From: Halanaeroarchaeum sp. HSR-CO
GTDB lineage: Archaea > Halobacteriota > Halobacteria > Halobacteriales > Halobacteriaceae
Direction of reading: 5' to 3'
DNA: 64,000 bases
NCBI RefSeq assembly: GCF_024972755.1
Contig: NZ_CP087724.1
Location: 124,001 to 188,000, forward strand
Of the stretch, positions 21,640 through 58,363 are shown piece by piece (position 1 is the first letter of the stretch; each line of letters begins with the position of its first letter). Below the pieces are notes generated by a model. It made no database searches. It worked only from the letters and a program-made list of their open reading frames with translations, and was not told where the DNA came from. Both the position numbers and the translations under genes were made by a program.

Positions 21640-21745
21640 TGGTCGACCGCTCGATCTGCCTCACACTCCTCGATCCGCCACCGACGTCCCGGGTGAACCC
21701 GCGACCGCCGGTGGATATTTGTCGTTCAAATGGCATTTCGTTGCC

Positions 21746-22141
21746 ATGGAGCGGCGAGCCCTCCTCTCCAGTCTTGCGATCGCCCTCAGCGGGTGTCTCG
21801 GTGGCGGTGCGCCACCCCGGTCCAGACTCGCCTGGATATGGCTCCAGAACGACCGCGAGCAGCGATATGCAGTCGACGTGACCGTCGAAGACGATGGCCA
21901 GACGGTGTACGACGATACGTTCCAGCTCCCGCCGGGTAGGTCGGAGACGACCGACGTCCGCGCGACCAGTCCAATCGAGGGGCCAGGTCGATACGTCGTC
22001 CGCGCGACGATGGACGGGGAGACCCGAGCGGTCGACACGACGGACTTCGTCGACGGAGAAGCGGACTGCGTGGGCGTGCGCTTCACCCTCCTCGACAACG
22101 GCAGCGTGGATTACTGGACGAAGTCGATGCAGGAGTGCTAG
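21746..22141 (+). CDS. Tat-type lipoprotein of unknown function
   Basis: A 131-residue protein starting MERRALLSSLAIALSGCLGG: twin arginine near the N-terminus and a lipobox LSGC, so it is probably exported by Tat and lipid-anchored at Cys16. The mature part is a single beta-rich domain (YAVDVTVEDDGQTVYDDTFQ...RYVVRATMDGETRAVDTTDF) with two further Cys (DCVGV and the C-terminal C). This pattern recalls small haloarchaeal lipoproteins with a transthyretin/Ig-like fold. It ends four bases inside the convergent DUF5305 gene. Confidence 0.7.
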   Translation: MERRALLSSLAIALSGCLGGGAPPRSRLAWIWLQNDREQRYAVDVTVEDDGQTVYDDTFQLPPGRSETTDVRATSPIEGPGRYVVRATMDGETRAVDTTDFVDGEADCVGVRFTLLDNGSVDYWTKSMQEC

Positions 22142-23232
22142 CCCTCTTCGAGGGGTTCTGGTGGGTCGTAGGTCACGAGGAGGTCCGGCGTGACCGCGTA
22201 GTATCGCTCGCGGTTCGGTTCCTCAATGACCGCCACGTTCGCGTCGATGGCGAAGTCGACGAGGTCGGCGAAGGACGCGGCCGCCGATGCCTCCCGATCG
22301 AGGACGCTGTCGGGCAGTTCCGCGCGGACCACCCACTCGTCGAACTCGGCTCGCTGATCGCGGTAGTCGAGGAGCGCGCGCTCCTCCGGGGTCAACGCGA
22401 TCGGTTCGTCACGGAACCGCACCGCGGCGAGACCGCCGAGGCCCACGAGCCCGAGGAGCAACACGAGCGGCCCGCCATAGCTCATGGCGGGTCCGTACGC
22501 ACGTGGGACCGTTTCCGTCGTCGTGTCGGTCACCTGCTCGGAGGCCCCATCGGGAGACCCAATCGAGTAAGTGCCGTCCGCCAGGGTGACGGGGAGTTCT
22601 GCGGAGTAGGTCAGCTCGGCCGGCTCACCGTTTGCCGGCGCGGTCGCCGTAACGTCGACGACGATGACGGTACTGAGTTCGCCGGGCGTGCTCCCGAGCG
22701 CGGCCGTGATGTTCTCTCGGCGCTCCATCGCGCGGCTGGCGTTGACGGAGAATTCGAGGGACTCCGTCTCTCCGGCGGCGACGGACTGGGCCTCGGTCGC
22801 GGCGAGGTCGGTTCGATCCGACCAGAAGACAGTCTCCTCGTCGGCGGCCCGGTGGACGAGGTCGGCGTCCAGTTGCACCGCCGCTGGTTCGTCACCGGTC
22901 GGTCGATACTGGGCCGTGAAATCGCCGTCGAGGATCGGCGAAGCCGCCAGGAAGTACGTCGAGCGGTTCTCCAGGGTCGCACCGGTCTGGAACACCGGAT
23001 TCGGGCGGGTCACCGTCGCCGAGTGGTCGAACGACCCGTCGACCGCCCAGGCGGTCTCCGTTGCCGTCGATTCGACGGTGCCCGGGTCGGCGTGCGCCGT
23101 GTAGGTGGCCCACCCACCTGCCAGTACCGCGATCACTGCAACGACCGCCAGCACCGCGAACCAGGACGCGAGTATCGCCCGTACTCGTAATTGCTGCGTG
23201 CCCTCCCCCGTACCGAAGTTGTCCGATTTCAT
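22138..23232 (-). CDS. DUF5305-type membrane protein
   Basis: 364 residues. It has one N-terminal membrane helix (ILASWFAVLAVVAVIAVLAGG), a ~210-residue extracytoplasmic beta-rich domain with NxT/S sequons (ENRST, NASR), a second helix (GGPLVLLLGLVGLGGLAAV), and a ~90-residue cytoplasmic tail ending in EEPNRERYYAVTPDLLVTY. This arrangement is DUF5305, which is repeatedly found beside archaeal SipW-type signal peptidases. It lies 30 bp downstream of the signal peptidase gene on the same strand, so it is probably in one operon. Likely an accessory or assembly factor for the exported proteins; role unproven. Confidence 0.75.
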   Translation of the reverse strand: MKSDNFGTGEGTQQLRVRAILASWFAVLAVVAVIAVLAGGWATYTAHADPGTVESTATETAWAVDGSFDHSATVTRPNPVFQTGATLENRSTYFLAASPILDGDFTAQYRPTGDEPAAVQLDADLVHRAADEETVFWSDRTDLAATEAQSVAAGETESLEFSVNASRAMERRENITAALGSTPGELSTVIVVDVTATAPANGEPAELTYSAELPVTLADGTYSIGSPDGASEQVTDTTTETVPRAYGPAMSYGGPLVLLLGLVGLGGLAAVRFRDEPIALTPEERALLDYRDQRAEFDEWVVRAELPDSVLDREASAAASFADLVDFAIDANVAVIEEPNRERYYAVTPDLLVTYDPPEPLEEG

Positions 23233-23262
23233 ATCACTGATTGGTGTCGATTGTCCCGTTGG

Positions 23263-24453
23263 TCACGAGTTCGATTCCCGCCGGTCGCCGGATGGCGTCA
23301 GGAACGCGAGGAGTCGGCGCCCCACCGATCGGCTGTGTCTCGATTTCCGGCGGCGGAGACGGACGCGCTGGCCGCCGAGCGCAGCGAATCCGAGCCCCAG
23401 TATCACCCCGGCCAGCACCGCGTCGATCGCCAGGATCGGTGCCCACGGGTGGACGCGGTAGAGGCCGTCGATGAGCGATGCCGGCAGCACCGCCAGGTAG
23501 CGGTGCTCCACGAGGTAATTCTGGTAGTACCCCGTCTCCTCGGGTGCCGTCAACGTCACCGCGGCCGTCCCGGCACTCCGGCCCCCGACGTACTGGTGGC
23601 CCGGATCGACGGCCACCCCCTCACTCCCTGGTTCCAGATAGACGTGGACCGGTACGAGCCCGCCGTTTGGAATCCGATAGTCCAGGGTCTTTGACTCGCC
23701 CGTCGGGATGACCGTCGGCCGTTCGGATTCGAATTCGGCGCTGACGACGCCGATCGACTGGGCGCCGGCGGGCGCCACCATGGCGGCCGTCGCCGAGAGG
23801 ACCAGCATCGCCGCCAGGCCCACCACGATTAGTCTCCCGTCGACGCCGTCGTCGTGGCCGACGGTCCGATCGCGTTCCCGGGATGGCCCCCTGCTCAATA
23901 GCAGGTCCACCAGGTACAACGCGATGGAGAGGCCGAGGACGACGTAGGCGAGCCCTTGCCCACCCGCCAGCGACCGCATCCCGGTCAGGGCCACGACCTG
24001 TCGTTGCACCGCCTCGAACGCCCCCTGGACCGCGGTAACACCTGTCCCGAGGTGGGGGAGAACGACCGTCTGGCCGCCGACCTGCAGCGCCACGGCGACG
24101 ATCTGAGCGTCTTTCACCGGTGGCTCATCCCCATCCTGGTCGGTGAACGGGTTCGCGTCACCCTGGGTCAGATAGCCGCGGTCGGTCGTGCCGACGATAC
24201 GGTGCGTCGTGAGACCTCCCTCGTGGAGTTTTTCGGCCCGGAACGTGACGACGTCGCCCGTCTCCGGCGAACCCGCCAGCGCGGCGGGCACGGCGACGAA
24301 CCCGTCACCTGCCTCCATGGTCGGCGCCATACTCCCGGTCTCGACGTACCCGAAAAGTATCGGCGTCCCGAGTACCTGCCCGACGACCAGACCGGCGACG
24401 AGCACGATGACCAGCACCTCCAGGCCGTTCCAGACGAGTCGCCGTGCGTCCAT
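23263..24453 (-). CDS. SipW-type signal peptidase I with extra exported C-terminal domain
   Basis: 396 residues from the ATG at 24453. After one membrane helix (VLVIVLVAGLVVGQVLGTPI) comes the peptidase domain: catalytic Ser in VETGSMAPTMEAGDG, the His that replaces Lys in archaeal/SipW-type enzymes in LTTHRIVGT, and GYLTQGDANPFTD with the acidic residue. A second helix region (residues ~160-180, and ~215-235) leads to a ~110-residue exported beta-rich domain (IGVVSAEFESERPTVIPTGE...) and a last helix with an RLRRRKSRHSR tail. Ordinary signal peptidases are about half this size. The gene sits between the stalked protein and DUF5305. Confidence 0.82.
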   Translation of the reverse strand: MDARRLVWNGLEVLVIVLVAGLVVGQVLGTPILFGYVETGSMAPTMEAGDGFVAVPAALAGSPETGDVVTFRAEKLHEGGLTTHRIVGTTDRGYLTQGDANPFTDQDGDEPPVKDAQIVAVALQVGGQTVVLPHLGTGVTAVQGAFEAVQRQVVALTGMRSLAGGQGLAYVVLGLSIALYLVDLLLSRGPSRERDRTVGHDDGVDGRLIVVGLAAMLVLSATAAMVAPAGAQSIGVVSAEFESERPTVIPTGESKTLDYRIPNGGLVPVHVYLEPGSEGVAVDPGHQYVGGRSAGTAAVTLTAPEETGYYQNYLVEHRYLAVLPASLIDGLYRVHPWAPILAIDAVLAGVILGLGFAALGGQRVRLRRRKSRHSRSVGRRLLAFLTPSGDRRESNS

Positions 24454-24516
24454 AGGGAGTTCTGGAAGTGTCTGACACGTTCGTGGCAATTAGTTAGCGA
24501 CCGACTTACCGGGTGC

Positions 24517-25383
24517 TCAGGGGCGACGACGGCCGACGAGGACCACCGCCAGCGCTGCAAGGAGGCCGACGATGCCCATTGCCAGGGCCCCTCCGGTGAG
24601 GCCGGCCGCGCGCTCGGTGACGAGCGCGATGGTCGGCGACCGCTCGTCCGGCTGGGTCGTCGTCACCGTCGCCACTTCGCCCCCGGTACTCTCGCCGGTG
24701 GTCGTGGCTGACCCCTGCGGTGGTGCGTCTGCTGGCGCGTCCGCGGGTGACGCGCCCGACGAATCGGCGGTCGTCGACGGCGCTATGCTCGTTGCTTCAC
24801 CATCGTCGTCCGAGGATTCCGTCGTGGTACGCTCGGACCCGCTCCACCAGTCACCCGGGGAATCGTCGTCCACATCGTCAGCCGTCGGTTCGGGCTCGGC
24901 GGCCCGCGCGTGGACGGTGAACTCGTCGACCTGCTCGACTGCGTTCCCGTCGGTCGTATCGACGAGCACGCCCACCGCGGCGGTCTCGTTCGGGCCGAGG
25001 GTGATGGCGGTCGAACGCGAGTCGACCGGCTGCCCCGCAGCAGTGAAGGTCAGTCCCTCCCCCTCGTGGGTCAGCCAGACCTCCGCGTACTCGCTCCCGT
25101 TGTAGTGGACGACGAAGACGTCTTCGAGGTGCGTGACGGTGCCCGGATTGACGCCCTCGACGTCTCCGGACGGGTTCGACGACGAGACGTCGATCACGAG
25201 TTCGCCATCAGCGAGGTACGAGTAGTCGCCGTTCTCGCCAGCCGCGGGCTGGAGGTGGACTTGGTTGCCGAGGTCATCGGCGGGCTGGGTCGGGACGAAC
25301 AGCGTCGCGGCCGACGGCACGAGCAGGGCGACGGCTGCGAGGAGGGCGAGACCGACGGCGAGGCGGTGGATGGTGCGGGGCAT
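24517..25383 (-). CDS. Exported, Ser/Thr-rich stalk protein with C-terminal anchor (DUF1102-like)
   Basis: 288 residues from the ATG at 25383. Signal peptide MPRTIHRLAVGLALLAAVAL, then a ~150-residue beta-rich domain (LADGELVIDVSSSNPSGDVE...), then a ~75-residue Ser/Thr/Asp/Glu stalk with many likely O-glycosylation sites. A C-terminal membrane helix ends in GRRRP. The order domain-stalk-anchor is that of a surface-displayed protein. It precedes the signal peptidase gene by 63 bp on the same strand. Inferred role: basal or tip component tethering fibres to the cell. Confidence 0.65.
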   Translation of the reverse strand: MPRTIHRLAVGLALLAAVALLVPSAATLFVPTQPADDLGNQVHLQPAAGENGDYSYLADGELVIDVSSSNPSGDVEGVNPGTVTHLEDVFVVHYNGSEYAEVWLTHEGEGLTFTAAGQPVDSRSTAITLGPNETAAVGVLVDTTDGNAVEQVDEFTVHARAAEPEPTADDVDDDSPGDWWSGSERTTTESSDDDGEATSIAPSTTADSSGASPADAPADAPPQGSATTTGESTGGEVATVTTTQPDERSPTIALVTERAAGLTGGALAMGIVGLLAALAVVLVGRRRP

Positions 25384-25580
25384 GGCCGGGACTGTCTGGC
25401 GCTCTCTCTCTGTCTCGGCCTTCACGGAGTAAGCGCATTGTATTGGGCCGTCTAGTCGGTGGATGGGGGTGCTTGAGAGGGAGACCGGGGGTGCTCGTGG
25501 CCCGCGTTCATCATCGCCGCAACCGTTGCTCGGTGGTCGAGGTCACCGAAAAATCTGGAGTGGGGTGCGGGCGTGGATCG

Positions 25581-26141
25581 TTACGCGTTGTTCTGGGGGT
25601 TCGTTTTCGATGCGTGGATGATAAGCGTTCCACCCGCGTTTTCGATGGGTTCTGCGGTCGTGATCGTCATGTCGACGAAGACGCTTCCGGGTTGGCCCGG
25701 GAACTGGAAGGGCTGGGTCAGGTCGATGCCCTCCGGCGGCACCGCGTGTCCACTCTGGCCGCCCCCTGCGGTTAACTCGACGTCGACGTCGAAGTCCTTC
25801 GGTTCGATCCAGAAGTAGTACTGCCCGGCGCTGCTACCCAGGTCGGCCCAGACCTCGAACACGTCGGCGAACTCGAACGTCGCCTCACCGTTCATCCCCT
25901 GAGACTCGGCCGCCCAGACGTTCCCCGGGTACTCGCCGAAGTTGAGCTCGAGTAATCCGTCTTCGTTGTAGGAGGCGTAGTCGCTGAGTGGGTTCAGTGC
26001 GATCCACGCACTCGCGTCTTCTTCGACCTCTACGGTCACGTTCCGCGTCGCAGACGCCGATTCGAAGGCGCCCGTGCCGATTGCAGCCGCCGACCCGGCG
26101 GCGAGTGATCCAACCGTCGCGAGGAATTTGCGTCGTTGCAT
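25581..26141 (-). CDS. SipW-dependent-type exported protein, paralogue 1
   Basis: 186 residues. The N-terminus MQRRKFLATVGSLAAGSAAA followed by IGTGAFESASA is a twin-Arg/SipW-type signal. The mature protein begins with a strand of alternating residues (TRNVTVEVEEDASAWIALNP) shared in pattern with the three upstream paralogues. The rest is beta-rich (FEFADVFEVWADL..., VDMTITTAEP) and free of Cys, as in TasA/camelysin-type beta-sandwiches. It has its own upstream module (26203-26226). Secreted and probably structural. Confidence 0.75.
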   Translation of the reverse strand: MQRRKFLATVGSLAAGSAAAIGTGAFESASATRNVTVEVEEDASAWIALNPLSDYASYNEDGLLELNFGEYPGNVWAAESQGMNGEATFEFADVFEVWADLGSSAGQYYFWIEPKDFDVDVELTAGGGQSGHAVPPEGIDLTQPFQFPGQPGSVFVDMTITTAEPIENAGGTLIIHASKTNPQNNA

Positions 26142-26202
26142 TGGTTTGGCCTCGTTCGCGTACCCGCTCGAGAGGGCACACTGGTGAGCAATCCACAGAA
26201 AA

Positions 26203-26226
26203 CTACGTAGTATTGATACGATTGCC
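26203..26226 (-). promoter_or_regulatory. Shared upstream element of the SipW-substrate genes, copy 1
   Basis: Plus-strand core GTAGTATTGATACGATT, centred about 73 bp before the start at 26141. The inner GTAT-TG-ATAC is a near-perfect palindrome. A second conserved block, GGGCACAC (26174-26181), lies 33 bp before the ATG. The same pair occurs at matching distance before all four paralogues. Confidence 0.7.
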
Positions 26227-26372
26227 GACCATTCAGCTATTGCCTGCGGTCCCCGTTGAGACCCCCTGCCTCCGATTTCTTTCGATATCGGTGAGTAGGA
26301 CTGCGAGTACGTTCCGAACAGGTTGTCTGTCCCATTGTCTCGGAAAAATCGATGCCGTCTGAGTGGTGTGGG

Positions 26373-27020
26373 TCAGTTCCCGCCCGGTCCCTCGACCGTA
26401 ACGGTGAGGGTTCCGGTCAGGTCGTCGTCGAGCGTCGCCAGCGAGCCGGTGGTGTCGACGTCGATGACGACGTAGATTTCCTGTCCCGCCTCGAAGTCGA
26501 CGGGGTCCGACGTGGGCATGCTACGCGACACCGGGATCGGGGTTCCCAGCTCGTTGTTGGGTGCCTTCAACGACGCCCAGTACCCGTCTGGGTCACCCTC
26601 GCCGAAGGCGTCGAACCGGATGAACGACTCGTTGGAGTACGTGGTGCTGTGGTCGACCCAGCTATCGTCGTCCAGGTCGTACCCCAGGATCAGGTCGTCG
26701 TAATCCTGTCCGTCGTTGTTGACGATCTTGAACGCGTGATCGGCGGCGGGGTCGTCCGGATCACCCCACGTGTAGGTGGAGTTGATATTCACACCATTGT
26801 CGCCGGGCGCCATCAGGTCGATCTCGAGTTCGCCGTCGTCGTTGATCTCGATCCCCGAGTGCCCGCCTGGAACCAGGGCGATCTTGCTATTCAGGTCGTT
26901 TTCCACTTCGACAGTTACGCTGCGGTCCGCGGAGGCCGTCGTGAACGCTCCCGTGCCGATTGCGGCCGCCGACCCGGCGGCGAGCGATCCAACCGTCGCG
27001 AGGAATTTGCGTCGTTGCAT
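26373..27020 (-). CDS. SipW-dependent-type exported protein, paralogue 2
   Basis: 215 residues from the ATG at 27020, where the first 20 residues match paralogue 1 exactly. The signal ends GTGAFTTASA; the mature part starts DRSVTVEVENDLNSKIALVP. Residues around GVNINSTYTWGDPDDPAADH are almost identical to paralogue 3 at both protein and DNA level, suggesting recent duplication or gene conversion. NxT/S sequons (NINST, SNES) suggest glycosylation. The C-terminus ends in a strand, LTGTLTVTVEGPGGN. Likely secreted beta-sandwich subunit. Confidence 0.75.
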   Translation of the reverse strand: MQRRKFLATVGSLAAGSAAAIGTGAFTTASADRSVTVEVENDLNSKIALVPGGHSGIEINDDGELEIDLMAPGDNGVNINSTYTWGDPDDPAADHAFKIVNNDGQDYDDLILGYDLDDDSWVDHSTTYSNESFIRFDAFGEGDPDGYWASLKAPNNELGTPIPVSRSMPTSDPVDFEAGQEIYVVIDVDTTGSLATLDDDLTGTLTVTVEGPGGN

Positions 27021-27083
27021 TGGTAACTCTCCGTTTGTGCGCTCCGTTCGTCGGGAGCACACGGCTAAACTATCATTTGAATA

Positions 27084-27107
27084 CCACGTAGTATTGATAC
27101 GATTACC
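27084..27107 (-). promoter_or_regulatory. Shared upstream element of the SipW-substrate genes, copy 2
   Basis: Plus-strand core GTAGTATTGATACGATT within 27084-27107, 64-87 bp before the ATG at 27020. The companion block GGGAGCACAC is at 27053-27062, again 33 bp before the ATG. Confidence 0.7.
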
Positions 27108-27240
27108 ATCGGTTCAGCGTCCACCTTACCCCGGTTTGGGCATTCTCTGAACGCTCGGTACGGTGACCGTATCGACGGCGGCCGAAGAAATGACGTAATT
27201 TGCACGTGACGACGGGTCTGCTGCGAACGGGCCCGTCCTA

Positions 27241-27921
27241 TCAGGGTGGACTCTCCGGGTACCAGCTATCCTGACTGATGCTCGCGTCCGAGGTGAACTC
27301 GAACGAAGCCGTCCCCGAGAGGTCGTCGTCCGTCGAGGCGTTCGGACCCGTGGTGTCGACGGTCACGACCATATAATATTCCTCACCCGAGTTGAACCGG
27401 TAGCCACCGCCCGGCGCCCAATCGCCGGTCGGTCCCCCCAGAGAGTAGTCCTTGTTGTAACTCTGGTGTGGGTAGTTCTCGGCGGAGGAACCCGTCGGCC
27501 CGTCGCCGGTGTCGAATAGCTGGAAGCGGATGAACGACTGCCCGTTGCCGTGGTTGGTGAGCCAGCCGGTGTTGGTGAAGAAGTAGTTCATCTTCATCAC
27601 CAGCGACTCCTCGTCGTTGTTGACGATCTTGAACGCGTGGTCGGCGGCGGGGTCGTTCGGATCGCCCCAGGTGTACGTGGAGTTGATGTTCACTCCTTCA
27701 CCGTTGGTTCCGGTCAGGTCCAGTTCGAGTTCACCGTCGCCGTTGATCTCGACGTCTTCGTGACTGCCAGGGACGAGCCCGATTTTCGCATTCAGATCGT
27801 TTTCGACTTCCACGGTGACCGTTCGGCCCGCCGAGGCAGTGGTGAACGCGCCGGTTCCGATTGCTGCTGCGGACGCGGCGGTCAGCGATCCGACCGTCGC
27901 GAGGAATTTGCGTCGTTGCAT
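27241..27921 (-). CDS. SipW-dependent-type exported protein, paralogue 3
   Basis: 226 residues, starting MQRRKFLATVGSLTAASAAA with the cleavage region GAFTTASAGRTVTVEVEND. Closest relative is paralogue 2 (same ENDLNAKIGLVPGSH and GVNINSTYTWGDP blocks), but the second half differs (TNTGWLTNHGNGQSFIRF, SSAENYPHQSYNKDYSLGG), so the exposed face has diversified. Ends in DDDLSGTASFEFTSDASISQ. It has its own upstream module. The tandem arrangement and separate promoters allow each subunit to be dosed independently. Confidence 0.75.
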   Translation of the reverse strand: MQRRKFLATVGSLTAASAAAIGTGAFTTASAGRTVTVEVENDLNAKIGLVPGSHEDVEINGDGELELDLTGTNGEGVNINSTYTWGDPNDPAADHAFKIVNNDEESLVMKMNYFFTNTGWLTNHGNGQSFIRFQLFDTGDGPTGSSAENYPHQSYNKDYSLGGPTGDWAPGGGYRFNSGEEYYMVVTVDTTGPNASTDDDLSGTASFEFTSDASISQDSWYPESPP

Positions 27922-27986
27922 TGGTTTTCGACCTTATTGGTGCGCCCAGTCATCCGGGAGCACACGTAATTCCAATCAGGCGAATA

Positions 27987-28010
27987 CGACGTAGTATTGA
28001 CACGATTGCC
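27987..28010 (-). promoter_or_regulatory. Shared upstream element of the SipW-substrate genes, copy 3
   Basis: Plus-strand GTAGTATTGACACGATTGCC at 27991-28010; one change (T to C) from the other copies breaks the inner palindrome. It ends 89 bp before the ATG at 27921. GGGAGCACAC is at 27956-27965, 35 bp before the ATG. Confidence 0.7.
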
Positions 28011-28147
28011 GTCGGTTCAACAAGGTCCTTCGCAGTTATCGTCTCTCTCTATTACCGAGGATTTCGCGAACGTCGGATTGGGAAAACGGTACGGAACGAG
28101 CATTCCTATCGAACCATCGACCAAAACGGAAAAATGGCGAATTTCGA

Positions 28148-28807
28148 TCAGAGGTCGGCCAGGGTTTTGTCGGCCTGGACGAATCCAGCGGTGTACGCGA
28201 TAATTCGGATCTTTCCGCTCACATCGATACTTGAATCGTCCGGGGTGCCGAAGATGTAGAAATCTGGTTCGAGCGCCTCGCCAGTTGTGATGACGTGTTC
28301 ATTATTCGTGGACCACGTCCGAGGATGTGCCGGATTTGAAAGCTCTCCGTTGTACGCAGATGGTGCGCTCGCCGCTCCGTTGATGTTGGGGAAGCTCGTG
28401 GGATCAGCGTTCGTGTAATCGTCATACCACCCACTGTGCATCCCGTTCGCCTTGAGATTATCAAAGAGCGTTCCCTTGAAGTATTGGCCGACTTCGTCGG
28501 GTACTTGCCCACCAGCATCAAGCAGGATAGCGATGGGTTCGTCAGTGGGATTTCTGATCTGGAAAACGTCGTAGAACCGGAAGTCAGCATCCTGGTTCAG
28601 TTCACCGAAATCGAGTTTCAACTGCCCACCGTCGTAGTACGCATACTCACTGTAGTCATTCAATTCGAGGTACGCGGCAGCGTCACCCGTCACGCCGACC
28701 GACACATCGCGCCGTGCGGTAGCTTGTGTGAACGCACCCGTACTCATTGCAGCCGCCGATCCGGCGGTGAGCGATCCAACAGTCGCGAGGAATTTCCGTC
28801 GTTGCAT
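28148..28807 (-). CDS. SipW-dependent-type exported protein, paralogue 4
   Basis: 219 residues from the ATG at 28807 (an in-frame ATG 15 bp upstream is less likely because paralogues start MQRRKF). Signal MQRRKFLATVGSLTAGSAAA and GAFTQATA, then mature RRDVSVGVTGDAAAYLELND. Body has LKLDFGELNQDADFRFYDVF and an ISGK-like C-terminal strand (IDVSGKIRIIAYTAGFV). Codon use is visibly more AT-rich than in its neighbours, hinting at later arrival. It has the same upstream module as the other three. Confidence 0.72.
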   Translation of the reverse strand: MQRRKFLATVGSLTAGSAAAMSTGAFTQATARRDVSVGVTGDAAAYLELNDYSEYAYYDGGQLKLDFGELNQDADFRFYDVFQIRNPTDEPIAILLDAGGQVPDEVGQYFKGTLFDNLKANGMHSGWYDDYTNADPTSFPNINGAASAPSAYNGELSNPAHPRTWSTNNEHVITTGEALEPDFYIFGTPDDSSIDVSGKIRIIAYTAGFVQADKTLADL

Positions 28808-28870
28808 TGGTGTTCTCCCCATTCACGTGCCCGACCGTCCTGGACACACCCAAATCGCTGGGGATGGTCG

Positions 28871-28892
28871 ACAGTAGTATTGATACGATTGC
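28871..28892 (-). promoter_or_regulatory. Shared upstream element of the SipW-substrate genes, copy 4
   Basis: Plus-strand GTAGTATTGATACGATTGC at 28874-28892, 64-85 bp before the ATG at 28807. The companion block is GGACACAC at 28842-28849, 35 bp before the ATG. This gene is the most diverged of the four, yet the element is intact. Confidence 0.7.
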
Positions 28893-29052
28893 GGGTAGAG
28901 TAAGCGAGGCTTGACGGTATATTGCCGACCTGCAACGGTGTCATATATACGGCTTACCACTTGTTAGCAACTATTTGACGACATCAGGCTACCACATACC
29001 TGATCGAAGCCCCTCCATAGCAATGTGCCCTACCTCGTAACTATCTCGTGAC

Positions 29053-29631
29053 GTGTCTACCACAACGGGTGCACCGGGGGGTGCGGTTCAGGAAGGGCCG
29101 TCCGAGGACGACCTGTTCGAGATCCTCTCGAACCGGCGTCGTCGCTACGTGGTCCACGCGCTGGAGCAGGCCGACGAGCCGATGCAGATCGGGGAGGTCG
29201 CCGAGCGGGTGGCGGCGTGGGAGTACGACGTCGACGAGTCTGAACTCTCCTACGACGAGCGAAAGCGGGTCTATACGGCCCTCCAGCAGAGCCACCTCCC
29301 GAAGATGGACGATATCGGTATCGTGGAGTACGACAAGAATCGGGGGACGATCGAGCCACAACCGGGGCTTGCGGAGGTCGACGTCTACATAGACGTGGTG
29401 TCGGGCCGGGAGATCCCCTGGAGCCAGTACTACCTGGGGCTCGCCGGGCTGGCGCTGGCCCTCGTCGCCGCGGTGGGGGCCGGGCTCTGGCCGCTCGAGG
29501 CGATTCCCGAAATCGGGTGGATGGCGGCCATCACAGTCTCGTTCGGCGTCTCGGCGGCGATTCACGCCTACTTCGATCGGACGTCGCGGCTCGGGGCCCC
29601 GGGCGCGCCTCCGGAACGGCTCAGGAGGTAA
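29053..29631 (+). CDS. Membrane-anchored winged-helix-type regulator (DUF7344-like)
   Basis: 192 residues from a GTG start. The N-terminal ~85 residues (DDLFEILSNRRRRYVVHALE, then IGEVAERVAAWEYD and RKRVYTALQQSHLPKMDDIG) are a winged-helix domain of the haloarchaeal DUF7344 kind. Two membrane helices follow (QYYLGLAGLALALVAAVGAG and WMAAITVSFGVSAAIHAYF). Such one-component membrane regulators are common beside haloarchaeal surface gene clusters. It diverges from the paralogue array and is followed by an exported protein gene 3 bp later. Candidate regulator of the shared upstream module; this is inference. Confidence 0.72.
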   Translation: MSTTTGAPGGAVQEGPSEDDLFEILSNRRRRYVVHALEQADEPMQIGEVAERVAAWEYDVDESELSYDERKRVYTALQQSHLPKMDDIGIVEYDKNRGTIEPQPGLAEVDVYIDVVSGREIPWSQYYLGLAGLALALVAAVGAGLWPLEAIPEIGWMAAITVSFGVSAAIHAYFDRTSRLGAPGAPPERLRR

Positions 29632-29634
29632 GCC

Positions 29635-30408
29635 ATGAGTGCACTGAAGACCCTCAGTTTCGCGCTGGCCGTCGTGGCGGTGACGGGATTGCTCGTCGGG
29701 TCGATCGGGTTCGGGAGCGTGGCCGCCGAGCGTGGGGTGTCGGTCGCGGTCGTCGACGACGACAGCGCGTACGTCGGGTATGAATCGAGCGATACGACCG
29801 TCGCCGATGGGGACCGGGTCGCCGTCGTCACCGTCACGAACCGACTGTTCGACGACGTCTCGGTGACGAACGTCTCCGTCGAGTCCGAGTCGGTCACGTT
29901 CGCGGACCTGAGCGAACCCACGCTGGCGCCGGGCGAGGCGGCGGCCATCGAGGGAACGGTCGACTGTTCGCCGGGTGACGCCGAGACCGTCGAGGTCACG
30001 GTCACGCTCGAAGGGGAGGGCGTGACCGCGGCCATCTACGGCGACACGGTGACGCGCGAATTCGCGGTCTCCTGTGCGGACACGACCCCGTCCGCGACGT
30101 ACCTGACCGACGGCGACGTCGAATTGGACGATTCGCCAGTCGCGGAGACCGACGTCACCTACTGGACGACCAGCACGAACGACACCCAGGACGAGCGGCC
30201 GTTCACCGAGCAGTCCCTGACCGGATTCCAGACGAACCAGACACTCCAGTCCCAGGTCCAGGGTAGTCCGAGCGCCGTGGCGCTGTACGTGCCCGCCGTC
30301 GACGTGACCTACGTCCACCCCGAGTTCGACCGCGAGAACGAGACTATCGACTCGTGGGAGGGCGGTGACGCGCAGGTCGTCGACGGCGAGCTCGACCTCG
30401 GCTCCTGA
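29635..30408 (+). CDS. Exported protein with SipW-substrate-like mature N-terminus
   Basis: 257 residues. Signal peptide LKTLSFALAVVAVTGLLVGS followed by FGSVAAERGVSVAVVDDDSA. The mature start repeats the R-x-V-x-V-x-V-x-x-D-x-x-A-[YW] pattern of the four SipW-type paralogues. A first beta-domain (to ~residue 145, with two Cys in VDCSPGD and VSCADTT that may form a disulphide) is followed by a second acidic region with NET and NQT sequons. No C-terminal anchor. The start lies 3 bp after the regulator gene, so the pair is an operon. Fifth candidate subunit. Confidence 0.65.
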   Translation: MSALKTLSFALAVVAVTGLLVGSIGFGSVAAERGVSVAVVDDDSAYVGYESSDTTVADGDRVAVVTVTNRLFDDVSVTNVSVESESVTFADLSEPTLAPGEAAAIEGTVDCSPGDAETVEVTVTLEGEGVTAAIYGDTVTREFAVSCADTTPSATYLTDGDVELDDSPVAETDVTYWTTSTNDTQDERPFTEQSLTGFQTNQTLQSQVQGSPSAVALYVPAVDVTYVHPEFDRENETIDSWEGGDAQVVDGELDLGS

Positions 30409-30516
30409 CGGGGGACCGCCGACGACCCCGCGCGGGCGTGGCCGGCCCGCTTGCGAACCAGCGTCCCGAACGAGGCAAACACCTATATCTCCGTAGCGTT
30501 CAGTTGCAGGCCATCG

Positions 30517-31119
30517 ATGGACGAGAAGACCGAGGAACTCCGCGACATCTTCATGCAGGTGAGCGACGACGCCGAGGTCACCGAGCGACAGTCCGAGTCC
30601 CGAGGATCGCTCGTCGACGACGTGGACGTCGCGGAGCGGCTGGTCGAGATCATCGGGCGCATGCGGGCCGACCTCGGGTTCGATACGACCCTCGATGACG
30701 AGGCCCTGGTGACCGTGGTCCGGGGGTTCTACGAGGGCGATTCCGACGCCGAGATCGCCAGGGAACTGGACGAGGAGACGGTGGCGAAGACGGTCGGTCG
30801 CGCTCGCATCGACCTCCATCTTCTCCGGGATCGGGACGAGGAGGCCCCATTCGCCCTCGAGGAACTCGAAGACGCACTCGATTCCGGTTCCTCGGTTTCG
30901 GAGACAGCAGCGGAACTGGGCGTCAGCGAATCGACGGTGCGCCGGTACCGACGAGTTCTCGAGGCGAAACGGGAGATTCGTCAGGTGAACGACCGATACC
31001 GTGACGACTTCGAGGACCTCCTCGAGGACCGCGGTCTCGCGGAGCAGATGACCCGCGACGTACTCGAGACGGGTCTCGAGGGTGCCATCGAGGGCCAGGA
31101 GACGGACACCCAGCTGTGA
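30517..31119 (+). CDS. Conditioned medium-induced protein 4-like HTH protein
   Basis: 200 residues from the ATG at 30517 (MDEKTEELRDIFMQVSDDAE), preceded by a TATA-like CCTATATCT at 30482-30490, about 27-35 bp upstream (leaderless fit). The centre has ARELDEETVAKTVGRARIDLHLLRD. Near residue 125-150 is a helix-turn-helix, SVSETAAELGVSESTVRRYRRVLEAK. The N- and C-terminal parts are acidic helices. I recall this family being annotated as conditioned medium-induced protein 4 in haloarchaea; a role in density-dependent regulation would fit but is not established here. Confidence 0.65.
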   Translation: MDEKTEELRDIFMQVSDDAEVTERQSESRGSLVDDVDVAERLVEIIGRMRADLGFDTTLDDEALVTVVRGFYEGDSDAEIARELDEETVAKTVGRARIDLHLLRDRDEEAPFALEELEDALDSGSSVSETAAELGVSESTVRRYRRVLEAKREIRQVNDRYRDDFEDLLEDRGLAEQMTRDVLETGLEGAIEGQETDTQL

Positions 31120-31173: not shown

Positions 31174-31848
31174 GTGACCGATACCATCGCCCTCTCCGAC
31201 CTCGCTATCGCGGCCTACTGTCCGCGAAAACTCCATTACGCCCGCCAGGACGACCGTTCGCCACCGGAATCGGCCGAGCAGGCTCGCCGTCTCTCTCGCT
31301 CGTATCCCGATCTTCGCATCGCGAGCGACGTCGCCCTCTCCTCGATTGGCCTGGACGTCTCGCCGAGTGCGTTCCGGGAATCGCTCGACCGCGTTCGCGA
31401 GACCCTCGACGCGTGGGACGCCCTCGTCGCGCCGGCGGAGACCGACGTCTTCGTCCGGGGAAAGGACGCACACGGGCGACTCGCGAAGGTCCTCGACGAT
31501 CCCCTCGCCCCGGTGCTCGTCTCCCCCGGTCGTCCGCCGGAGACCGGCGTCTGGCACCCGCAGTCGGTCCGGGCGGTCGGCTCGGCGAAGGCGCTCTCCT
31601 GGCGGGAATCCACGCCGGTCGAGACGGCGTTCGTCGAGTATCCGTTCCACGGGGTCGTCCGGAAGATTACGCTGACGACCCGTCGAACGGCCGAGTACCG
31701 TCGCACGCTTCGCGCCGTTCGAGCCCTCGACGGTCCGCCACCGCGACTCCACGACGAGTCCCGGTGTGGGGCCTGCGAGTACGCCGAGCAGTGCGGCGTG
31801 CAGACCCGCTCGCTGCGGTCGCTCCTCTCGCTCAGCGGTGGTCGGTGA
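31174..31848 (+). CDS. Stand-alone Cas4-like Fe-S protein
   Basis: 224 residues from a GTG start. It has the Cas4/AddB-type cysteine arrangement: one Cys near the N-terminus (IAAYCPRKLHYAR) and three near the C-terminus (RCGACEYAEQCG), the ligand set of a 4Fe-4S cluster that clamps the nuclease domain. No CRISPR array or other cas gene is present. The expected PD-(D/E)xK catalytic signature is not clear; the candidate strand reads APVLVSPGRPPETG. It overlaps the convergent Sua5 gene by 17 bp. May be a diverged, possibly inactive, nuclease. Confidence 0.7.
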   Translation: MTDTIALSDLAIAAYCPRKLHYARQDDRSPPESAEQARRLSRSYPDLRIASDVALSSIGLDVSPSAFRESLDRVRETLDAWDALVAPAETDVFVRGKDAHGRLAKVLDDPLAPVLVSPGRPPETGVWHPQSVRAVGSAKALSWRESTPVETAFVEYPFHGVVRKITLTTRRTAEYRRTLRAVRALDGPPPRLHDESRCGACEYAEQCGVQTRSLRSLLSLSGGR

Positions 31849-53339: not shown

Positions 53340-54038
53340 CTACCGCACCTGGTCGACCTTCTGATCGGGGTGGACGGCGATACCACCCGACGAGAAGGAG
53401 ACGGCGTGCATGTCGCAGTCGATGTCGGTTCCTCGCATCTTGATGACCTGGACTGCACGTTGCATCCCCCCAGCCTCCATGAAGTTGTGGAAGAAGATGA
53501 CGCCGTGGGCGAGGAAGTGCTCGGCCGAGTACGCCGAGGGGTCGGTCATCTCGGAGATCAGGATGATGGTGGCGTCGGTCTGTTTCAGGCGGGTGGCGAA
53601 CTCGGTGAGGGCGTTGTCCGGATCCTCGACGAAGTGGGTGAGCAACATCGTCGAGTCGATGACGGCCCGATCCACACCGATCTCCTCGATCATCGCGGCG
53701 ACGCGGTTCGTCAGGCCCCCCTCGGTCCCGTACTTGGTGAGCGACATCCGCGCCTTCTCCGAGGTGAGGTTGAGAAAGCGCGCGTTCTTCGCCGTGATGG
53801 CCTGCTCGAAGCCGAACTCGAAGGAGGCCATGTCCTGGATCAACTCCTCGCGCGTCTCGTGCATCGTGATGTAGAGGCTCGTCTCGTCGTTGCGGGCCCC
53901 TTCGGTGATGAACTGCGAGGCGAACGTCGTCTTGCCGCTTCCCGGCGGCCCGCTGATGACGTACAGTCGGTTCGCGGGCACCCCTCCATCCAGCAACCGG
54001 TCCATCCCTCGACACCCCGTTGGCACGCGCATTGGCAC
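53340..54038 (-). CDS. RAD55/KaiC-family ATPase
   Basis: 232 residues (ATG at 54038; 54032 also possible). RecA fold: CRGMDRLLDGGVPANRLYVI, Walker A SGPPGSGKTTFASQF, Walker B region VDRAVIDSTMLL, and the KaiC-type MKMRG-like element QVIKMRGTDIDCDMHAVSF. The single-domain haloarchaeal members lack a second KaiC repeat and have no strand-exchange motifs, so they are probably signalling or regulatory switches. The small helical partner follows with zero spacing. Divergent from mcm. Confidence 0.8.
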   Translation of the reverse strand: MPMRVPTGCRGMDRLLDGGVPANRLYVISGPPGSGKTTFASQFITEGARNDETSLYITMHETREELIQDMASFEFGFEQAITAKNARFLNLTSEKARMSLTKYGTEGGLTNRVAAMIEEIGVDRAVIDSTMLLTHFVEDPDNALTEFATRLKQTDATIILISEMTDPSAYSAEHFLAHGVIFFHNFMEAGGMQRAVQVIKMRGTDIDCDMHAVSFSSGGIAVHPDQKVDQVR

Positions 54039-54121
54039 GACGATGGCGACGCTGGACTATAGGCTTCCGGGATTTCCGGACACGAGAGTTTATAGGCCAT
54101 GGGCGGTCTATCTGGGTGCGA

Positions 54122-57100
54122 ATGGCCGAGGTTCGCGACCAGGAACTCGTCGACCGATTCGAGACGTTCTATCGGCGGTACTACGCCGACGAGATCGCCG
54201 AACTCGCGCGGGGCTACCCACGCGAGCGCAAGTCCCTGGAGATCGACTGGGAGGACCTCTTCCGGTTCGACCCGGACTTCGCGGACGACGTCGTCAGCTA
54301 TCCCGACCGGTTCCGCGACGCCGCCGAGGAGGCCCTCCGTCTCTACGACCTCCCCGTGGACGTCTCGCTCGCGCAGGCACACGTCCGCATCCAGAACCTC
54401 GGCGAGGTAACCGAGATCCGGGAGATCCGCTCGGATCACATCAACACGCTCGTGAGCGTCCGTGGTATCGTCCGCAAGGCCACCAACGTCCGCCCGAAGA
54501 TCCAGGAGGCGACGTTCGTCTGCCAGCGCTGTGGCGCGGAGACGATCGTCCCCCAGACCGACGCCGGCTTCCAGGACCCCTACCAGTGCGAGTCCTGCGA
54601 GCGCCAGGGCCCTTTCCAGCTCGACGCCGAGGATTCCGAGTTCGTCGACGCGCAGAAACTCCGGGTCCAGGAGAGTCCCGAGGGACTGGGCGGCGGCGAG
54701 ACGCCCCAGGCCGTGGACATGAACGTCGAGGACGACCTCACGGGCGAGGTCACGCCCGGCGACCACGTCGTCGCGACGGGCATCCTCCGTCTCGACCAGG
54801 GCAAGGAGAACTCCGACTCCCCCATCTTCGACGTCTACCTCGAGGGCGTCTCCCTCGACGTCGAGGACGAGGAGTTCGAGGAGATGGACATCACGGAGGC
54901 CGACAAGCGCGAGATCATCGAGCTCTCCGAGACCGAGGACCTCTACGAACAGATCGTCGACTCCCTGGCCCCCGCCATCTACGGCTACGAGCAGGCCAAA
55001 CTCGCGATGGCCCTGCAGCTGTTCTCCGGAGTCACCAAGCACCTCCCCGACGGCTCCCGGATCCGTGGCGACCTACACATGCTCTTGATCGGGGACCCTG
55101 GTACGGGGAAGTGTGTCGCTGGGAACACGAACGTAACTCTCGCCGACGGAACCCGGCGACCGATTCGTGATATTGTAGAAGCTGAACTGGACGATCCGAA
55201 ACCGGTCGACGACGGCGTCTATCAGGAGGTGGACATCCCACTTCCGACGATGGATGCCACGGGTGACCTGCGCATCGGCCGAGCGACGAAGGTCTGGAAG
55301 CGGGAGGCACCCGACCAGCTGTATCGTATCCATCTTGCCGACGGGACCTCGCTAGAGGTCACTCCGTCTCATCCGCTGTTCGTCAGGCGGAATGGTGGCC
55401 CGGAGGCCGCCAAAGCCGAAAATCTGTCAGAGGGTATCGTCGTTGCGACTGCGAACCCTGTCGCGGTCGACGGTGGATCAATGGTTGCCGATCCGGTGCA
55501 GGAGAATGATAACGGTCAACTGCGACGAACTGCGTCGAAACGGTCACGCGAAGTGGCCGGACTACCAACGTCCGTCGGTTGGACGAAAATTGACGACATC
55601 GAGACCGTCGCCCCAGAGAACGAGTGGGTGTACGACCTGGAGGTCGAGGGTACGCACAACTACCTCACGGAACACGTCGTCTCGCACAACTCACAGCTAC
55701 TTCAGTACATCCGAAACATCGCGCCCCGTTCGGTGTACACCTCCGGCAAGGGCAGCAGTTCGGCCGGGTTGACGGCCGCGGCGGTCCGCGACGACTTCGG
55801 CGACGGGCAGCAGTGGACCCTCGAAGCGGGGGCGCTCGTCCTCGCCGACCAGGGCATCGCGGCTGTCGACGAATTGGATAAGATGCGGCCGGAAGATCGG
55901 TCGGCAATGCACGAAGCGCTAGAACAGCAGTCCTATCACCCTAATTCGGAGATATTGCTGGCCGATGGGAGGCGTGTGGAAATCGGCTCACTCGTCGACG
56001 AGCGGATGGCTGCGTCGCCAAACGAGGTCGTCGATGGCGTGGACTGTGAGATTCTTCCCGTCGATGACGTTCGGGTTCACTCCGTCGACATGGAGACGAA
56101 CGACGTCTCGAAGGTTCCAGTGGACCGCGTCAGCCGACACGATGCACCGGACCAGTTCGTTCGGGTGACGTTCTCGAATGGGCGAAGCGTCCTCGTCACT
56201 CCCGAACATCCGATGTTCGTCGCTGGCGAGGAGGGCGTTGGAACAGTCGAAGCGCGCTCCTTAGGTACGGGGGCGTTCGTCCCTGCCCCAAGGAAACTTC
56301 CCAACTCATCGGTCCCCATATCGCTGGACGGCGAGCCACACATTGGTAAAGAGAAGGACATCGACCTGCCCCACGAAATGTCAGACGACCTGGCAGAGAT
56401 TCTGGGATTCCTCGTGGCAGAAGGACACTCGTACGCCGGTTCGTCTCACGAGATTGGTTTCTCTAACCAGGATGAGCGGCTTTTGGCCCGGATGGACTCG
56501 CTATTCCACACGGTCTTCGGGATGGAGAGCACGAATACGACGAACAGTGCAGGGACTGTCACCCAACGGTGGGTCTCTACCAAGCTCTATCGCTGGTTCG
56601 AGCAGAATTTCCCGAAATTGATGGAGAAGGCTCGGAAAAAGCGCATTCCCGACGCTATTCTCGGTGGGTCCGAAGAGGAAATCCGCCGTTTCCTCGTCGG
56701 TGCGTTCGCGGGTGACGGGGGTGTCGAAAGCGAGGCAATGGCATTTTCGACTGCTTCTCCGGATCTCGCAGAGGATTATGCAGATGCCCTAGCCAAAATC
56801 GGTGTAGCCTCGCGGATTCATTACAGCAAGACCGAAGATTCGTGGAAGACGTACGTTATGGGCGACTCCACTGAACGATTCGTCGAACACGTAGTGGAAC
56901 CAACCGATGATCGTTTCGAAAAGGCACGAGCGTTCGTCGACCGTAGTCTCGAAACGAAGCGACACCACGACGTTCTTCCAACGAGTGCGGCGAGAGAACT
57001 TCGCTCGTTAAAGCGATTGTTGGGCGTCAGTTTGACCGGGAAATTCCGACCGCATCTTGACAACGATTACGGCGTACGAATCGAGACTATAGAGGCCGAG

Positions 57101-58363
57101 CTAGACGCGTTATGGTCGAGGGCTACAGAGGTTCGTGACACACTCGAAGACACTACCACTCTGTCCGAGGTCCGCTCGGTTATTGGGTGGTCTGGTCGTG
57201 CGCTCGCGGACCGGCTCGATGGAGTGACGACGAGCGCGATTCACTACGCCGAAGAGGGAGGCTACGATGTCGACCATCGAAACCGGCTAATCGCACGGGC
57301 AAAAAGTGCGATTCGGGACGCCCTTTCCGAGTTCGAATCGCGGGCCGCCGTTCTCCAGGCAAAGACCGATCTCAGGTACTATCGCGTAACGGACGTAGAA
57401 ACGGTACCGAACGAAGGCGAGTACGAGACTGACTGGGTGTACGACGTCACTGTGGAACCGACGAATACGTTCGTGAGCCAGGGCGTCGTTCTCCACAACT
57501 CCATCAGCATCAGCAAGGCCGGCATCAACGCCACCCTGAAAGCACGCTGTTCGCTCCTTGGCGCCGCGAACCCGAAGTACGGCCGTTTCGATCAGTACGA
57601 GTCGATCGGCGAGCAGATCGACCTCGAACCGGCGCTCATCTCGCGGTTCGACCTCATCTTCACCATCACCGACCAGCCTGACGCCGAACGCGACGCCGAA
57701 CTGGCCAACCACATCCTGCAGACCAACTACGCCGGCGAGTTGAACACCCACCGCTCGAACGTGACGACCTCGAACGTCTCCGACGAGGAGGTGGAGGGGG
57801 CGACCGAGGAGGTCGAACCGGCCATCGACGCCGAACTCCTCCGGAAGTACGTCGCCTACTCCCGGCGCACCACCTTCCCGACGATGACGCCGGAGGCGCG
57901 CTCGACCATCGAGGACTTCTACGTCGACCTGCGCTCGAAGGGCCAGGACGAGGACGCACCGGTCCCGGTCACCGCCCGGAAACTCGAGGCGCTGGTGCGG
58001 TTGGCCGAGGCGAGCGCGCGGGTTCGCCTCTCCGATACGGTCGAGAAGGCCGACGCCGAGCGGGTCATCGAGATCGTCCGCACCTCCCTGCAGGCGGTGG
58101 GCGTCGACCCCGAGACCGACCAGTACGACGCGGACGTCATCGAGACGGGGACCTCGAAATCACAGCGCGACCGCATCAAGAACATCAAACACCTCATCGA
58201 GGACATCGAATCCGAGTTCGACGAGGGGGCGCCGGTCGACGAGGTGCTCGCCCGGGCCGAGGAGGTCGGTATGGAACGCAGCAAAGCCGAACACGAGATC
58301 GAGAAGCTGAAACAGCGCGGCGAGGTCTACGAACCCAGCACCGACCACCTGCGGACGACCTGA
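54122..58363 (+). CDS. mcm: MCM replicative helicase with two inteins
   Basis: 1413 residues as encoded, 697 after splicing. The start at 54122 (MAEVRDQELVDRFETFYRRY) sits ~27 bp after the TATA-like GTTTATAGG. N-terminal zinc site: CQRCG (C134, C137) and CESC (C156, C159). The AAA+ Walker A GDPGTGK (324-330) is cut by intein 1 directly after its Lys. Walker B is VDELDKM in the 80-residue extein between inteins (524-603). Intein 2 splits EQQ from SISISKAGI (sensor/helix-2 region). C-terminal winged helix ends KLKQRGEVYEPSTDHLRTT. It unwinds DNA at the replication fork, so splicing is essential. Confidence 0.95.
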   Translation: MAEVRDQELVDRFETFYRRYYADEIAELARGYPRERKSLEIDWEDLFRFDPDFADDVVSYPDRFRDAAEEALRLYDLPVDVSLAQAHVRIQNLGEVTEIREIRSDHINTLVSVRGIVRKATNVRPKIQEATFVCQRCGAETIVPQTDAGFQDPYQCESCERQGPFQLDAEDSEFVDAQKLRVQESPEGLGGGETPQAVDMNVEDDLTGEVTPGDHVVATGILRLDQGKENSDSPIFDVYLEGVSLDVEDEEFEEMDITEADKREIIELSETEDLYEQIVDSLAPAIYGYEQAKLAMALQLFSGVTKHLPDGSRIRGDLHMLLIGDPGTGKCVAGNTNVTLADGTRRPIRDIVEAELDDPKPVDDGVYQEVDIPLPTMDATGDLRIGRATKVWKREAPDQLYRIHLADGTSLEVTPSHPLFVRRNGGPEAAKAENLSEGIVVATANPVAVDGGSMVADPVQENDNGQLRRTASKRSREVAGLPTSVGWTKIDDIETVAPENEWVYDLEVEGTHNYLTEHVVSHNSQLLQYIRNIAPRSVYTSGKGSSSAGLTAAAVRDDFGDGQQWTLEAGALVLADQGIAAVDELDKMRPEDRSAMHEALEQQSYHPNSEILLADGRRVEIGSLVDERMAASPNEVVDGVDCEILPVDDVRVHSVDMETNDVSKVPVDRVSRHDAPDQFVRVTFSNGRSVLVTPEHPMFVAGEEGVGTVEARSLGTGAFVPAPRKLPNSSVPISLDGEPHIGKEKDIDLPHEMSDDLAEILGFLVAEGHSYAGSSHEIGFSNQDERLLARMDSLFHTVFGMESTNTTNSAGTVTQRWVSTKLYRWFEQNFPKLMEKARKKRIPDAILGGSEEEIRRFLVGAFAGDGGVESEAMAFSTASPDLAEDYADALAKIGVASRIHYSKTEDSWKTYVMGDSTERFVEHVVEPTDDRFEKARAFVDRSLETKRHHDVLPTSAARELRSLKRLLGVSLTGKFRPHLDNDYGVRIETIEAELDALWSRATEVRDTLEDTTTLSEVRSVIGWSGRALADRLDGVTTSAIHYAEEGGYDVDHRNRLIARAKSAIRDALSEFESRAAVLQAKTDLRYYRVTDVETVPNEGEYETDWVYDVTVEPTNTFVSQGVVLHNSISISKAGINATLKARCSLLGAANPKYGRFDQYESIGEQIDLEPALISRFDLIFTITDQPDAERDAELANHILQTNYAGELNTHRSNVTTSNVSDEEVEGATEEVEPAIDAELLRKYVAYSRRTTFPTMTPEARSTIEDFYVDLRSKGQDEDAPVPVTARKLEALVRLAEASARVRLSDTVEKADAERVIEIVRTSLQAVGVDPETDQYDADVIETGTSKSQRDRIKNIKHLIEDIESEFDEGAPVDEVLARAEEVGMERSKAEHEIEKLKQRGEVYEPSTDHLRTT
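55112..55690 (+). other. MCM intein 1 (mini-intein at the Walker A lysine)
   Basis: 193 residues (331-523 of the precursor). Starts with Cys in CVAGNTNVTLADGTRRPIRD; block B is LEVTPSHPLFVR; ends THNYLTEHVVSHN with Ser as the +1 extein residue (SQLLQY). There is no LAGLIDADG endonuclease, so it can splice but not home. Base composition is slightly more AT-rich than the exteins. It disrupts the phosphate-binding loop, so unspliced MCM cannot bind ATP. Confidence 0.9.
55931..57499 (+). mobile_element. MCM intein 2 with LAGLIDADG homing endonuclease
   Basis: 523 residues (604-1126 of the precursor). Starts with Ser in SYHPNSEILLADGRRVEIGS; block B is VTPEHPMFVA (intein residues ~89-98). The two endonuclease helices are LAEILGFLVAEGH (~154-166) and RRFLVGAFAGDGG (~252-264). 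It ends with TNTFVSQGVVLHN and +1 Ser (SISISK). A ~150-residue stretch between endonuclease and the last splicing blocks (RSLKRLLGVSLTGKF..., IGWSGRALADRLDGV) looks like a helical DNA-recognition domain. Clearly lower GC than flanking exteins, consistent with later acquisition. Confidence 0.92.

Follow-up and report, generated by a model that had tools for sequence, protein, structure and literature searches.

A haloarchaeal gene cluster with four tandem TafE-like pilin genes that very probably encodes a Tat-fimbria-like surface filament

Tat-fimbriae (tafi) are reportedly the subject of a 2025 article by Galeva et al., iScience 28:111793. The sole Tafi-titled structure found in the PDB is 9P0A (title: Structure of Natrinema sp. 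J7-2 Tafi pilus), and searching the literature for 9P0A or the Natrinema pilus yielded nothing relevant. Among the other fibre systems compared here, AbpA of Pyrobaculum calidifontis (7UEG) is crenarchaeal, the Sulfolobus thread Saci_0406 (7PNB) is a donor-strand filament, and the TasA-TapA-SipW system of Bacillus subtilis (TasA, 8AUR) comprises a dedicated SipW peptidase and an Ig-fold helper, TapA. AbpA was characterized as a TasA-like, donor-strand-complemented archaeal fibre (PMC9674648). For haloarchaea, PMC12687288 describes thin filaments, the tafi, whose components leave the cell through the Tat system, with TafA as core component.

The stretch of DNA analyzed in this study (64,000 nucleotides, hereafter called the window) originates from a haloarchaeal genome of 2.79 Mb, assigned to Halobacteriaceae through named relatives at these loci, and contains a compact surface-fibre cluster at positions 22138-30408 (Table 1). 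In reading order, the minus strand carries taf4, taf3, taf2 and taf1, followed by the genes for a TafF-like stalk protein, a signal peptidase and a DUF5305 protein, while the genes for a DUF7344 winged-helix protein and a TafC-like exported protein are located on the plus strand, divergent from taf4. Judged from its sequences, the cluster belongs to the known kind of Tat-fimbriae, as part of a wider family, and its subunits would be Tat-signal pilins with kinship to the Tafi pilin. The product of the cluster is thus very probably a Tat-fimbria-like surface filament of TasA/AbpA/Tafi type. Near-identical signal peptides, a box whose four copies are unique in the genome when up to two mismatches are allowed, and a conserved gene order argue against a chance assembly. 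All genes listed in the original prediction were found in the window, including the DUF5305 membrane protein and a membrane winged-helix protein, which was identified as DUF7344. Only the left limit at 21746 did not hold. The reading frame at 21719/21746-22141 (+), encoding a putative Tat lipoprotein (MERRALLSSLAIALSGC), was rejected as a cluster member and placed outside the unit, since none of 20 related loci contained a match to it and its orientation is convergent with that of the DUF5305 gene. On the other side, the TafC-like gene is followed by genes for proteins that read as helix-turn-helix-like (30451-31119, +) and PDDEXK/Cas4-like (31174-31848, +); both kinds of genes are also found 3′ of the TafC-like gene in locus L056 of the same genus.

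Table 1. Features of the cluster (window coordinates) and subunit-like proteins with a C-terminal lectin-like domain in related loci (locus coordinates).
Feature	Position	Strand	Match or remark
DUF5305 membrane protein	22138..23232	-	Pfam 5.7e-46
Archaeal/SipW-type signal peptidase	23263..24453	-	TIGR02228
TafF-like anchored stalk protein	24517..25425	-	TafF 2.5e-13; DUF1102 1.1e-05
taf1, TafE-like pilin paralogue, putative Tat signal	25581..26141	-	TafE 9.3e-14 over residues 1-101
taf2, TafE-like pilin paralogue	26373..27020	-	likely start is RR Met; open frame to 27062
taf3, TafE-like pilin paralogue	27241..27921	-	56% identity to taf2 over 210 residues
taf4, TafE-like pilin paralogue	28148..28807	-	likely start is RR Met; frame to 28822
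DUF7344 winged-helix protein, C-terminal hydrophobic segment	29053..29631	+	Pfam 4.3e-32
TafC-like exported protein	29635..30408	+	TafC 8.1e-17
Box copy 1 (GCAATCGTATCAATACTAC)	26207..26225	-	about 66 nt before taf1
Box copy 2	27088..27106	-	before taf2
Box copy 3	27991..28009	-	before taf3
Box copy 4	28874..28892	-	before taf4, divergent intergenic region
Subunit-like protein with Laminin_G_3 domain	L056:5776-7116	-	
Subunit-like protein with Laminin_G_3 domain	L065:7649-8899	+	
Subunit-like protein with Laminin_G_3 domain	L105:813-2072	+	
Subunit-like protein with Laminin_G_3 domain	L128:5141-6418	+	

The signals of all four paralogues start with the twin-arginine motif MQRRKFLATVGS (MQRRKFLA, extending to MQRRKFLATVG) and are identical at 25-29 of 31 residues in pairwise comparison, whereas beyond the signal the proteins share only about 24-49% identity, in agreement with the divergent second halves described beforehand. 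Owing to the RR motif, these signals have to be classified as Tat-type signals whose cleavage region is SipW-like; the four tandem paralogues and the SipW-like cleavage region had been recognized in the original prediction, the RR motif had been overlooked. TatC genes are present in the host genome. The four RR subunits would be exported by the Tat pathway, and the archaeal-type signal peptidase of the cluster, whose partnership with the subunits is suggested by gene order, would cut after A-x-A (as read from the sequence) and free the mature strand R-x-V-x-V-x-V. Export by Sec and cleavage by a SipW-like peptidase, as for TasA in Bacillus, with RR being incidental, would fit the SipW-like peptidase in the cluster and the signals of the TafC-like and TafF-like window proteins, which are devoid of RR. 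However, RRK was invariant in 56 of 56 homologue rows, albeit gathered with the N-terminus included, and Tat-dependent export has been reported for tafi components in PMC12687288 (citing Galeva et al. 2025), so that the Sec route appears very unlikely.

Window proteins matched the NCBIfam families TafE, TafC and TafF, all below the curated cut-offs; as these are equivalog cut-offs, the proteins are regarded as homologues and not as equivalogs. For the paralogues, these matches covered mainly the first 70-110 residues, and TafE was matched by all 56 homologues. A profile built from the four paralogues and 52 homologues (A4) matched the pilin 9p0a_C at 1.2e-32, signal region included. The predicted structure of taf2 (model m5a8bb5547f83; moderate, with pLDDT 75 and pTM 0.68) is a TasA-like beta-sandwich. 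Foldseek searches with this model yielded no match under 1e-3. In a second look using VIA-align, in which Z values of 8-9 taken by themselves may reflect a widespread arrangement, AbpA (7UEG) was the top match (Z 9.2, 150 residues), followed by 9P0A (Z 8.4) and the Sulfolobus thread (7PNB; Z 8.3), with a lower value for TasA (8AUR; Z 6.2). Identity to taf2 is 10% for AbpA and 8% for TasA; for the thread, likened by fold alone, it is 7%. Taken singly the fold matches are modest, but they become strong once combined with the sequence match and the gene order. The TasA/AbpA-like fibre proposed in the original prediction was therefore largely right with regard to the fold and the pilin match, although the known kind it falls into, Tat-fimbriae, had been missed.

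Since monomeric TasA has the same fold (PMC9674648) and the window proteins stay under the Taf cut-offs, the exported proteins might be seen as non-fibrous surface or matrix proteins, camelysin-like or S-layer-associated, which share the fold only. With a pilus subunit, 9P0A, as the nearest solved relative by sequence, and with only TafA missing from the Tafi gene set in the cluster, this is considered highly improbable. In a Tat-fimbria-like filament, by analogy to AbpA, TasA and Tafi, donor-strand exchange would take place between subunits: the predicted beta-sandwich of each subunit would take up the N-terminal strand of its neighbour, resulting in a thin beads-on-a-string fibre. In the monomer model of taf2, no strand was assigned at residues 46-60.

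The signal peptidase matched the archaeal signal peptidase I family TIGR02228 with 52.1 bits (cut-off 51.85) and the SipW equivalog with 30.9 bits (cut-off 190). The latter value was rejected as proof of membership in the SipW family, and in this the cluster differs from the TasA system; of the SipW-type peptidase initially proposed, an archaeal signal peptidase I with a weak SipW match is left. The protein has an extra C-terminal exported domain, and S53 and H96 are conserved in the alignment (numbered along the 408-aa frame, in which Met13 is the likely start). As the genome contains TatC genes and, elsewhere, a second, more weakly matching archaeal signal peptidase, the peptidase of the cluster may be dedicated to it.

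The TafF-like protein consists of a DUF1102-type domain, a Ser/Thr-rich linker and a C-terminal hydrophobic segment, one of two hydrophobic segments, and its TafF match is below the cut-off. It had been described correctly as a Ser/Thr-stalked anchored protein, with its kinship to TafF going unnoticed. The canonical TafF of locus L069 (6.6e-175) shows the same layout. Based on this layout, the TafF-like protein may anchor or start the fibre at the membrane, and the DUF5305 protein, in which an extracytoplasmic domain lies between two hydrophobic segments, may assist the membrane platform. The fifth exported protein (mature start ERGVSVAV) turned out to be TafC-like, below the cut-off, and its predicted structure (model m39ff339c6deb) is all-beta and includes an Ig-like domain spanning roughly residues 41-150. 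Scattered Ig matches of this model (complement, PapD-type chaperones) at Z 8-9 were too general, and therefore it was left without a family name; Pfam domains were not found in any of 30 TafC relatives. Whereas canonical TafC has a C-terminal lectin-like domain, the window protein has none. From the layout, a minor subunit, a tip adhesin or an assembly helper can be envisaged. In principle, this would be comparable to TapA, with which it shares the general Ig fold only.

Through the signal peptidase, 66 haloarchaeal loci with sufficient flanks were gathered. Each other part of the cluster was present in 63-66 of them (DUF5305 and the TafC-like gene in 64 each, the DUF7344 gene in 63), with the count for TafF being loose because its profile also matches subunits. 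The DUF7344 and DUF5305 neighbours and the peptidase also occur in L069, in which TafA, TafC, TafE and TafF are all above their cut-offs. The winged-helix protein and the peptidase may be guessed to correspond to TafB and TafD, two letters of the series that are not listed. The cluster and its relatives thereby fix a common set of parts, including DUF5305 and DUF7344 as regulator candidate.

Sampling of the class (391 genomes) revealed TafA above the cut-off in 24, and none was detected in the host genome. A profile of mature TafA gave no match at 1e-2 to the four paralogues, and NCBIfam TafA matched only their signal region, so that none of them was accepted as TafA. In a tree of the peptidases, seven loci picked for TafA, together with L057, are found on one side of a branch with a support of 100/99, and the window and 92 other rows on the opposite one, where the mature-TafA profile had a single marginal match (0.0096, L090). 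Because the TafA loci were picked for TafA, the most suitable reading of the split is an absence of TafA from the window-type lineage. Sequence comparison thus puts the window cluster in a lineage that would be sister to the TafA-bearing one and in which there is no clear TafA; such a sister lineage of Tat-fimbriae appears to be widespread. In L071, a TafE-like protein matched the pilin of 9P0A at 7.1e-21 and the TafA-like protein did so at 2.8e-12; from the better match of the former, it seems that the role of main pilin can fall to TafE-like proteins. Besides the missing TafA and the peptidase lineage, the window cluster differs from tafi by its four tandem TafE-like subunits and a box preceding each of them.

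This 19-bp box precedes every one of the four RR start codons at a distance of 66-70 nt. Elsewhere in the genome no copy was found at up to two mismatches; one further site on the chromosome has three. In Halobacteriaceae and Halolamina loci, the core of the box was exact in eight divergent regions and had one or two mismatches in three, and in families beyond these it was at background level. The DUF7344 protein is presumed to be the regulator of the cluster. It would control the expression of the subunits, perhaps via the box, which we guess it binds. The host genome has seven DUF7344 matches, six of them above the cut-off; apart from the cluster's own, two matches lie about 2.4 kb from each other at 1620221-1623077 (G000:C1), one of which outscores it.

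Possibly, though with somewhat less than even probability, each paralogue with its own box forms a separate, alternative homopolymeric fimbria chosen by regulation, which would be compatible with the fimbria reading. Every paralogue having its own upstream box and intergenic region, the strong divergence of the second halves, and the occurrence of close relatives of single paralogues in distant genomes are in line with this. Yet joint control is suggested by the near-identity of the boxes, the similarity of the mature N-terminal strands would suffice for mixed fibres, and in most loci a few subunits lie beside one shared assembly set.

taf2 is 72% identical over 219 aa to a protein of Halorubrum rubrum (L099); the mature part reaches 74%, with 56% for the peptidases of both loci. 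Over 1,477 subunit pairs, subunit identity was on median 23 points below peptidase identity, and in just 55 pairs, several of them across families, the subunit was more alike than the peptidase. Additionally, the GC3 of taf4 (0.63) is the lowest in a list of 48 gene-like ORFs of the window, some of them spurious, and falls short of the mean by about 2.4 standard deviations. These reversals and the GC3 of taf4 point to an exchange of subunit genes, which seems to have occurred between families. The number of RR subunits per locus was 0-4 in 62 long loci by a simple motif count and up to 6 by a looser one. The subunit slot would hence be modular, variable in paralogue number and seemingly traded between species. 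Compared to the described systems, these variable and seemingly exchanged subunit genes are new, as are the sister lineage without TafA and the box before each subunit gene. They suggest that the module being freely exchanged is the fibre subunit itself. Several haloarchaeal surface proteins without a name thereby receive roles that can be tested, and such a system lends itself to the study of surface variation in archaea.

In some subunit-like proteins, among them one of the same genus (L056), a Laminin_G_3 domain forms the C-terminal part; those of L095, L110 and L134 end in a beta-helix instead. Tentatively, the boxed pilin genes of Tat-fimbriae without TafA might be interchangeable cassettes, which are duplicated, swapped between haloarchaeal families and gain lectin or beta-helix ends, with fixed genes for export, cleavage and anchoring and the membrane winged-helix protein selecting the product; we regard this as a possibility with odds below even. 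Farther along the window, at 54020-58363 (+), a frame of 1447 aa reads as resembling an MCM helicase with two intein-like interruptions.
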